In this document: piece after piece, positions 46,101-59,635 of the stretch
How the letters are laid out: each line of letters begins with the position of its first letter
Numbering within the stretch: the first letter of the stretch is position 1
DNA from: Rugalucina vietnamica
Lineage: Eukaryota > Mollusca > Bivalvia > Lucinida > Lucinidae
Direction: 5' to 3'
NCBI GenBank assembly: GCA_964017185.1
Contig: OZ024871.1
Span: 11,276,214 to 11,340,213 of the forward strand
DNA length: 64,000 nucleotides
Position numbers and translations under genes: made by a program
Notes under the pieces: model-generated
What the model was told of the DNA's origin: nothing
The model's input: the letters and a program-made list of their open reading frames with translations, nothing else
Databases searched by the model: none

Positions 46101-49100
46101 CAAACTGTCCTGGGCCAGCGAAACTTTAGTTTAAGGACTTTTTGGTGTGTAATTTTTTAATAATGTTAAATAAGAACATGTGGACCTATCTCAATTATTG
46201 GGGAACAGTCAGTAAGTAATCGAACAACTGAACTGGTACATGTACTTACATTAAGGGCATATGATATGGAGAGTCCTACTATACCGGGAGAAAGGGAATC
46301 TCTGGCAATGACGGCAAACAAGGCAGCAAAGAACACTATACAGTTACCAACAAACTCCAGACGGACAGCTAACCATCTGTAATCAGGAATAACATTAAGC
46401 TCTTATGTTAAACAAAACAACAACAGAGTGGAAAATCTAAGTTTGAGCTATAATTTACCCAACAAAGATCTTGATTAGTCTGATCATCTACTCAATGATG
46501 TTTTACTAGACATATGCCACCAAGTCTGTATACCAAACTGATTGCAAATTTACAGACAGACAGGTGCACAGGGGTAAATAAATTGGTGCTGTCCGAGCAT
46601 ATCAACTGTTGCAAAATATCTGAAACCAGTGATATGGCTGTTGCATGAGACATGATACAACTGTCAATATACTCAGACCACAGCAGAATTACTGCATTCT
46701 ATGGTATTCAAATGACATGGGAGACAGCATATACAGTACCATTTGATTTACCTGAGGGGGTGTTGCCAAAAAGTTCTTATTTTTTAGTTAAATCTGGGTC
46801 TCCACCTAAGAAGTATTGCAAAATTTCAAGACTCAGCCACTTCATCATTACATACTGACCTATTAGATATAAGTGTAGGATAATGACAGACTAGATTCTC
46901 ATCGACTTTATTAGCCGAGGTGGCTATAAACCTCTCCTGTTGCTGATAGGCCCTCACTGTGGGCGCTCCCATCACTGTCTCACCGAAATGGGAGTATATA
47001 GGAGACCTGCTCACAGACTCTAGACGCTTCAACTGTCTAGATGTGGCAACATAAAATCTCTGTAAAAAGGTGGATATAGACACACATAAGGGATTACAGT
47101 ATTATAATTGAGCCTGTGCGTGAGAAAACCAACAATTTTGGTTCCGACCAGGTCCAACACAAACCGGGCTGTACAGTCACAGAAGATGGTTAGAGGCTGG
47201 AAATTTTGGATTTATGAAGAGAAGAGGGATTGTACTATCTGTGTAGCAAAAACAAAGACGCTGATCAGCTTCGCATAACTGCGAAGCTGATCTGCGCCTT
47301 TGTTTTTGCCTATGCAGATTGTTGGTTTTCCCACGTGGCGGCTCATATATCAATGAACAATAAAAATCCTAAAATTTTGGACAGCTTGAGTAGAAATCCT
47401 TTGAAAATTTAGATGTAGTGGAAAACAGAGCAGACCAGATCTAACTGCTTTTCAGCTAAAAGCAATCTGACCTATGAGTAATGTTGGTTTTCATGGTACA
47501 TATATCTGTCCAAAAAAGAAGAAACTTTTAAATTTTAATCATGGTCCTTTAACAGTATTTTGCATATTGACTAAACATTAAGTTGACAAAATGTTGAAAT
47601 TATGATTTTTAATAAGAACTTAAATAAATTACAATTCTGTTTATTGATTATGTATTAACACTCAAAGAGTGAATATATTTCTTATTTATTTATTTTCTTA
47701 TATATTTACTCTTTTTTTAAATCATCATTTTAAAAATGATTAAAGACACACATCATCAGAATAATACATTCCTGAGGTCATATGCCAATTTCTAGGGATT
47801 CTTTGTGTTTATAATAACTCAGACAAAAGTGATTAAATATACAAATCATTCGAACAAACAAGTTCTGAATGTGTGTGATGTATAGCAGATGACCTCGGGA
47901 ATTCATAACATTGAAATTATCACATCAGATAGGTGGCAACAGATGATGATTAAGCATTTAACAACTGGAGTGTTTTGAATTACTTTTCCTTGGCAAATAC
48001 CAAATTCTTGATTACTGTTTTGAGTGTTTCCCAAAGCCACCTATCCAGTATGATATTGAAATATCTGAGTATAAAGGGGATACAGCAGGATTTCAACTTT
48101 GTTTTTTGTTTTCTTCTTTTCATTTGGCATATAGAAATACAAACTATTCTATCTTTATGATGCCAGTTGGATATCTTTTCAGATGATACTATTTATGCTT
48201 AGAAAATAGTTTGATCTTGGTATTTGATGAAGCATAAAGCAGAAATTCTAATGATATGATGATGACAAACTTGCAAATATAATACATGTTACATGCAAAT
48301 GGGTATGTTTTTTTTTCCCGATGACCTAAACCCGCATATTTCTCTATCCTAGATGGTCAAGAGAATGGTCAACCTCTTAAAGGCACAAAATGCATAGTCG
48401 AGTATAGTATCATCAATCTGCACAACAGTCAAAAATGCTGACCATACTTTTGGAGTAATTCACTTTGGCTCCATGTTGCCAAATCTATAGGGTCACTGAA
48501 GAGGCTTTAGTAGCCAAAACCGCGGTATGGCCCATCCCCTTTCTCATTAATATGTTCTGTTCACTGCTGTTAAAGGATCTCAGTTGTATTTTTATTTCAA
48601 TATACCAACAAGACCCTAATAATTTCTTTACTCTAAACAGTTCAGTTAAGGGATGATGGTCAAGCAGATGTTATCAGCATTGTAAATAGGGATATATCCT
48701 AATGAATATGCCATGATTCTTATGATTTATGGTCAAACCTGAGCAAAATATATGTACCTTACCAGATACCAGAAATACTTTAATTTGTCATATTTCATAG
48801 CTTGAAAGACTTGAAAGAAGAACCATAAGATGAATCAGTAGAGATAATAGTTCTGAAGGTGACAGTGGTTAACCCTTGGGCTATAAAGTTTTGTCCTTCT
48901 GATTGCATGAGGAATTTTCGCAGGTATGATGCAAATGCAATATGAGCATTAATTAAGAAGTGGTTCTATGGAACAATCTCTGATTAACTACAAGTTTAAA
49001 GATGATAAAGCAATGGGATAAGCAGCATGTACCTGAACAAAATAATATATCACAGCTAATGGTGGAACACAAGTAATGAACAATGGCATAGCTCCTGCTA

Positions 49101-59635: not shown

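Follow-up and report, generated by a model that had tools for sequence, protein, structure and literature searches.

An important question raised by this locus is whether a series of similar exons in an exporter gene of the bivalve Rugalucina vietnamica provides real alternatives, of which each functional mRNA takes up exactly one. The original prediction was made for a stretch of 64,000 nucleotides (contig positions 11276214-11340213; the window, whose coordinates are used throughout) and had placed four exons of 311 nt, with AG before and GT after each of them, at 49033-59635 of an ABCC1/MRP1-type transporter gene, as tandem alternative exons with only one per mRNA. All four are present at these places, but the count of four was too low: with neighbouring stretches added and 164 kb scanned, four more copies were found to adjoin the window end, outside it, making eight altogether. 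Our reading, in which we have high confidence, is that this is a single gene with eight swappable 311-nt exons, one of which enters each full-length mRNA.

The array consists of eight tandem homologous exons on the minus strand, termed V1-V8 in transcript order. Beyond the window, where positions above 64000 are extrapolated window coordinates, lie V1 (74227-74537, i.e. L012:227-537), V2 (71871-72181, L011:7871-8181), V3 (70306-70616, L011:6306-6616) and V4 (68271-68581, L011:4271-4581). The intron upstream of V5 (59636..64000) runs on past the window end, with V4, V3, V2 and V1 following next. Inside the window are V5 (59325..59635, donor CAG|GTTAGT), V6 (57459..57769, donor CAG|GTCAGT, Pfam ABC_membrane with 59.5 bits), V7 (50060..50370, donor CAG|GTTAGT) and V8 (49033..49343, donor CAG|GTACAT, ABC_membrane with 53.4 bits). 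Both the length of 311 nt and the AG/GT borders are readable in seven of the eight variants. In V2, 23 N mask the acceptor and the beginning of the exon, which makes its exact length and acceptor illegible in the assembly, and its legible part and donor agree with the 311-nt size. A profile of the eight variant peptides scores V5-V8 at 140-163 bits and V1-V4 at 154-161 bits; it detected no further copies or relic variants in the 164 kb (next best place at E 1.1). The reading frames of all eight variants are open as far as they are legible, and V1-V7 differ from each other by 0.38/0.22/0.62 at codon positions 1/2/3, which points to purifying selection; V8 is a divergent outlier with 26-33% amino acid identity to V1-V7. 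What is varied is one and the same protein segment, which leads from within helix 13 through the cytoplasmic loop directed towards the ATPase domains and helix 14 to the start of helix 15. The introns of this region also contain satellites at 60453-62229, 63101-64000 and 53839-54554, whose repeat units measure about 455, 465 and 256 bp.

The host of the array is one ABCC1/MRP1-type exporter gene on the minus strand, at least 72 kb long. Exons were located with a vertebrate MRP1 sequence as an approximate query and run from ~112383 down to 40016 in the order TMD0 pieces, TMD1, NBD1, array, NBD2 and stop. Matches to the TMD0 region cover MRP1 residues 22-55, 123-163 and, weakly, 168-191; for residues ~56-122, 290-344 and 878-956 this query gave no secure constant-exon match, and the gene start was not located. 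NBD1 is found upstream of the array only (Walker A GSVGTGKSS near 94554, LSGGQ near 90365), and the NBD2 motifs, GRTGAGKSS (Walker A) and SVGQRQ (signature), downstream of it only. The constant exon before the array (79642-79861, L012:5642-5861, extrapolated) has a phase 1 donor, and the one directly after it (46860..47059) a phase 0 acceptor. Then follow, also on the minus strand, an exon for the helix 16-17 region (46250..46376), an exon with LNWMVRM (45390..45491), in which the N, W and R of helix 17 are named MRP1 pocket residues, the exon preceding that of the NBD2 Walker A motif (45080..45226), the exon with GRTGAGKSS itself (44519..44677), a further exon of NBD2 (43238..43404), an exon in which SVGQRQ is followed by an LDEA motif (40827..41021) and the last coding exon, which leads to the stop (40016..40130). 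The Walker A and signature exons of NBD2 match Pfam ABC_tran; 46250..46376, 45080..45226, 43238..43404 and the last coding exon were recognized by their MRP1 matches. Bovine MRP1 is the top solved-structure match of the NBD2 half (1.4e-198), whose identity to Mercenaria and Ruditapes, the nearest among 16 proteins compared, reaches 86-87%. This match and the MRP1 order of the NBD motifs support the predicted gene type. Several stretches of the gene are repeated in tandem: a 53-bp unit present 13 times (99% match) at 39377-40066 spreads copies of the last coding piece and the stop into the 3' region; a 160-bp tandem duplication at 44297-44651 includes part of the NBD2 Walker A exon a second time; and at 92769-94605 (extrapolated; L013, L014) tandem copies of about 101 bp, in which the final part of the NBD1 Walker A exon is followed by its splice-donor bases, lie within the following intron.

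Use of a single variant is enforced by the reading frame. The phase is 1 at the end of the upstream constant exon and 0 at the start of the downstream one, and each variant contributes 2 + 309 nt, so that the phase 1 entry and phase 0 exit originally assigned to the variants are borne out by the computed exon model. Skipping of all variants or joining of two had been expected to shift the frame, and the consequences are early stops: at codon 80 of the partial gene model when every variant is skipped, and within the array, with variants in genomic order, in 28 of 28 pairs and likewise in 56 of 56 triples, while none of the 70 combinations of four reads through the array. In the pair joins, the premature stop lies 1270-1405 nt upstream of the last junction. 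In animals, a stop far upstream of the last junction is the layout that triggers nonsense-mediated decay. Splicing would thus lead from the constant exon before the array to one variant and on to the constant exon after it, and nonsense-mediated decay would eliminate faulty mRNAs, in which the variants are all skipped or two or three of them are joined. Because such mRNAs stop early, each full-length mRNA would encode an exporter with one of eight helix 13-15 versions on a common chassis. Frame disruption is the sole enforcement of single-variant use demonstrated in this array. Presumably all eight variants are expressed, but V8 may be little used in transcripts, since it combines a weak donor (score 4.1 versus 9.2 for V1-V7) and a divergent sequence with the lack of a match in a protein search, where none of 62 candidates reached E 0.001 or better, in itself weak evidence with a word-based choice of candidates.

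Proteins of other bivalves bear on the same point. Four isoforms of Mercenaria mercenaria (X1, X2, X3 and X5) are all 1563 amino acids long, and every difference among them falls between residues 1060 and 1160, i.e. inside the segment encoded by the 311-nt exon, with all other residues in common. As database entries confined in their differences to the segment that the window array also swaps, these MRP1-like isoforms support exclusive use. The predicted rule of one exon per mRNA thus appears to be enforced by the frame in the window gene and would fit the isoforms of another clam. The database has entries for MRP1-like isoforms of Ruditapes philippinarum and Mya arenaria as well. In the database protein searches (174 hits for V7 and 425 for V4, the best 120 of each being listed), the highest identity of a window variant to a variant of another species among the matches listed is 68-69%, between V7 and Mercenaria X2, and the rest are lower.

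Could the variants instead stem from separate or decayed transporter genes, i.e. from tandem partial gene copies among which only one exon is live? Tandem exon duplication is itself a copying event, and the gene does have other partial exon copies, namely pieces of the Walker A exons of NBD1 and NBD2. In the span from V1 to the next constant exon, however, there is no NBD motif, and the MRP1 query hits variants only, bar a chance-level match (E 0.52, 58794-58859); that the variants might own separate NBD2 exons, an objection foreseen in the original prediction, is contradicted by this absence of NBD motifs between them. Frames that are open in all eight variants as far as legible, zero relics in 164 kb and the codon pattern of purifying selection are equally at odds with decay, and the Mercenaria isoforms, identical outside the variant segment, do not look like products of separate genes. 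We therefore regard an origin from partial copies as very improbable. That the exons are alternative yet not strictly exclusive, with two or more of them included at times, appears improbable as well. It could draw on database proteins with several variant segments in a single chain: two to four of them occur in P0001, P0002, P0004, P0006 and several arthropod proteins, with two in P0001 (Mizuhopecten) and three in P0006 (Mytilus). Yet the window gene stops early in every pair and triple, and since P0001 has 15 extra residues between its segments and P0006 lacks a full NBD2 half, these multi-segment proteins are likely to be gene-finder joins, i.e. annotation artefacts. The warning follows that gene finders seem to fuse such exons into false proteins. 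A single gene in which one variant is spliced into each full-length mRNA thus remains our preferred reading.

By which mechanism one exon would be chosen is a separate matter. Steric blocking between neighbouring splice sites is unlikely, because the introns between the variants measure 716-8635 nt, and so is a mixture of U2 and U12 spliceosomes, because each of the eight variant donors begins with GT (CAG|GTYAGT in V1-V7, CAG|GTACAT in V8) and none is U12-like. Weak variant donors as a class can be rejected, as V1-V7 lie within the range of the constant donors (3.3-11.3, n=18). At donor position +3, 16 of 18 constant donors have a purine, as against one of eight variants (Fisher p 0.0004, with 18 of the 19 listed constant donors used and the variant copies not being independent of each other). 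A search of Rfam over 44000-64000 gave 0 matches at gathering score.

With short introns and mixed spliceosomes being improbable explanations here, exclusive choice may operate by competing RNA pairing between a docking site and selector sequences, which PMC6071210 describes for the MRP and Dscam arrays of insects. This mechanism would be compatible with our main reading, and we rate it at somewhat less than an even chance. We scanned for ungapped docking/selector complementarity in four layouts, with four measures at each of two word lengths, in comparison with 30 shuffles. Three of these 32 measures exceed all 30 shuffles, each for a docking site assumed in the last intron: the downstream-partner sums at both word lengths (116 versus 110.2, sd 3.1; 126.5 versus 109.1, sd 3.7) and a 5-of-7 measure with upstream partners (16.0 versus 14.4 in shuffles, sd 0.7). 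Against this, the other 29 measures are equalled or surpassed by at least two of the 30 shuffles, no measure involving all seven or six of seven partners rises above the shuffles, and for the two raised downstream-partner sums, copies of an inverted repeat occur both in the last intron and in that after V3. Array-wide complementarity was thus not established by these 32 measures and 30 shuffles in a single genome. The inverted repeat itself is a palindromic MITE-like element found, for instance, at 50612-50854, 47142-47348 and L011:6043-6285, one copy of which folds to -115 kcal/mol. Since it occurs at about 56 places in 324 kb (copies cut by a border counting twice), it is not special to the array, and as a pairing device it can be set aside as background from a dispersed family.

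The equal length of the variants turns out to be unremarkable. Among the eight best ABC-membrane loci of the genome, i.e. V4 itself, four ABCC paralogues and three others, all four paralogues have a homologous exon with AG and GT precisely 311 nt apart, and in all four this exon is single within 40 kb around each paralogue. The remaining three loci gave one weak profile match without AG/GT borders and two cases without a match. On this comparison of sequences, the size of 311 nt is an old, ancestral ABCC feature, and it is the eightfold copying that distinguishes our gene among the genes checked. A tree of 35 sequences was built from the window variants, other bivalve segments, chiton, arthropods, annelids and the four paralogues. 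In it, V1-V7 group with 11 other bivalve segments in a single clade (96/90), which has the chiton adjoining (90/81) and stands apart from arthropods, annelids and paralogues; in a separate tree of 38 rows, the support for the bivalve fork is 85/84. V2, V3 and V4 group together (97/86). V1 pairs with Mercenaria X2 (84/80; 87/72 and 85/86 in another tree run), and V7 groups with Mercenaria X1/X3 and Ruditapes (83/78), this in the 35-sequence tree only. These pairings with Mercenaria variants, and a clustering by species label that, in that other run, is no stronger than in 205 of 500 shuffles, suggest that some variants may be older than the split from Mercenaria, but a single clade of V1-V7 is not rejected (AU p 0.452). 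V8 falls outside the bivalve clade on a long branch, with a placement inside not being rejected (AU p 0.202). By identity, it is nearest to Owenia (45%), Dimorphilus (42%) and a spider (41%), followed by bivalve variants of other species (38-39%), and it is possibly the founder copy of the array.

What the variants change in the protein can be approached by alignment with bovine MRP1 (6uy0), in which positions 7-100 of V5 correspond to residues 1033-1126 and segment position 66 corresponds to residue 1092. Met1092 in helix 14 is among the 14 residues listed for the LTC4 pocket of MRP1 in PMC8267652, and its position is the only one of these 14 within the variant exon. Across V1-V8, position 66 is occupied by A, W, G, A, S, I, M and S, and in four Mercenaria variants by A, H, G and M. 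Within V1-V7, conservation is highest in the cytoplasmic loop (positions 28-57), with an identity of 0.76, and lowest at positions 58-78 of helix 14, with 0.33; the same holds for three Mercenaria variants (0.82 for the loop, 0.32 for helix 14). Across nine species of other groups, with one form each, the identity at positions 58-78 is 0.43, and elsewhere in the segment V1-V7 are as similar to each other as these species or more so. Permutation of labels gave p 0.004 in 500 draws for the helix 14 divergence, but this excess among the variants is suggestive only, because the segment was chosen after the sequences had been seen, the rows are related and some of the comparison insects have variants of their own. 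Residues assigned to the P-pocket of MRP1 and MRP2 (PMC8267652, PMC11711199) lie outside the variant exon, and the constant exons retain NR (helix 16) and NW..R (helix 17). A fixed charged pocket with a swappable hydrophobic wall would be in line with this arrangement. The more far-reaching version, i.e. that splicing swaps the helix 14 that walls the hydrophobic half of the pocket and has diversified it beyond the level seen between phyla, that the charged pocket gripping the conjugate stays constant and that V8 is a retained founder with a role of its own, is a tentative proposal that we consider rather unlikely to hold in full. If true, bivalves would tune exporter specificity through exon choice. 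Altered substrate handling by the variants is in any case a testable idea: the exon chosen may alter the set of compounds that are exported by a filter feeder.

Overall, this locus provides a clear eight-exon bivalve array with intact frames, for which single-exon paralogues serve as a control within the same genome and database isoforms of another clam as a complement. Insect MRP/MRP1 clusters share gene type and principle with it. Our insect comparison refers to protein isoforms of Hymenoptera, in 10 groups. In six of these groups, the differing segment starts at a place homologous to the start of the window exon, comprises 73-74 residues and ends before VIATLVVISY (VIATLFVISY in one), i.e. 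about 30 residues earlier than the longer window exon, which has 103 residues up to ...VQ|RFYV; the hymenopteran borders are deduced from protein differences, and in the other four groups the chosen isoform pairs differ elsewhere only. The original prediction had left it open whether the likeness to Drosophila reflects an ancient device or an independent invention. Because the bivalve variants form a clade of their own and the insect segment ends earlier, in six of 10 groups, a separate duplication now appears favoured. The abstract of Yue et al. 2017 reportedly lists Mollusca among the phyla with MRP exon arrays. A bivalve MRP array is not described in the titles or the beginnings of abstracts listed by our literature search. 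For Drosophila, PMC6071210 lists D. melanogaster MRP with a variable exon cluster of eight, and it attributes the tandem exon arrays of metazoan MRP genes to multiple independent duplications across phyla with convergent splicing (PMC6071210, citing Yue et al. 2017, RNA Biol 14:1399). The principle of choosing one exon from a tandem array is also shared by Dscam1, an unrelated protein with larger clusters than the window's eight exons (48, 33 and 12 in D. melanogaster, according to PMC6071210). Thus, the array principle is already in print for MRP genes of several phyla, and the gene described here adds an eight-exon example from a bivalve.
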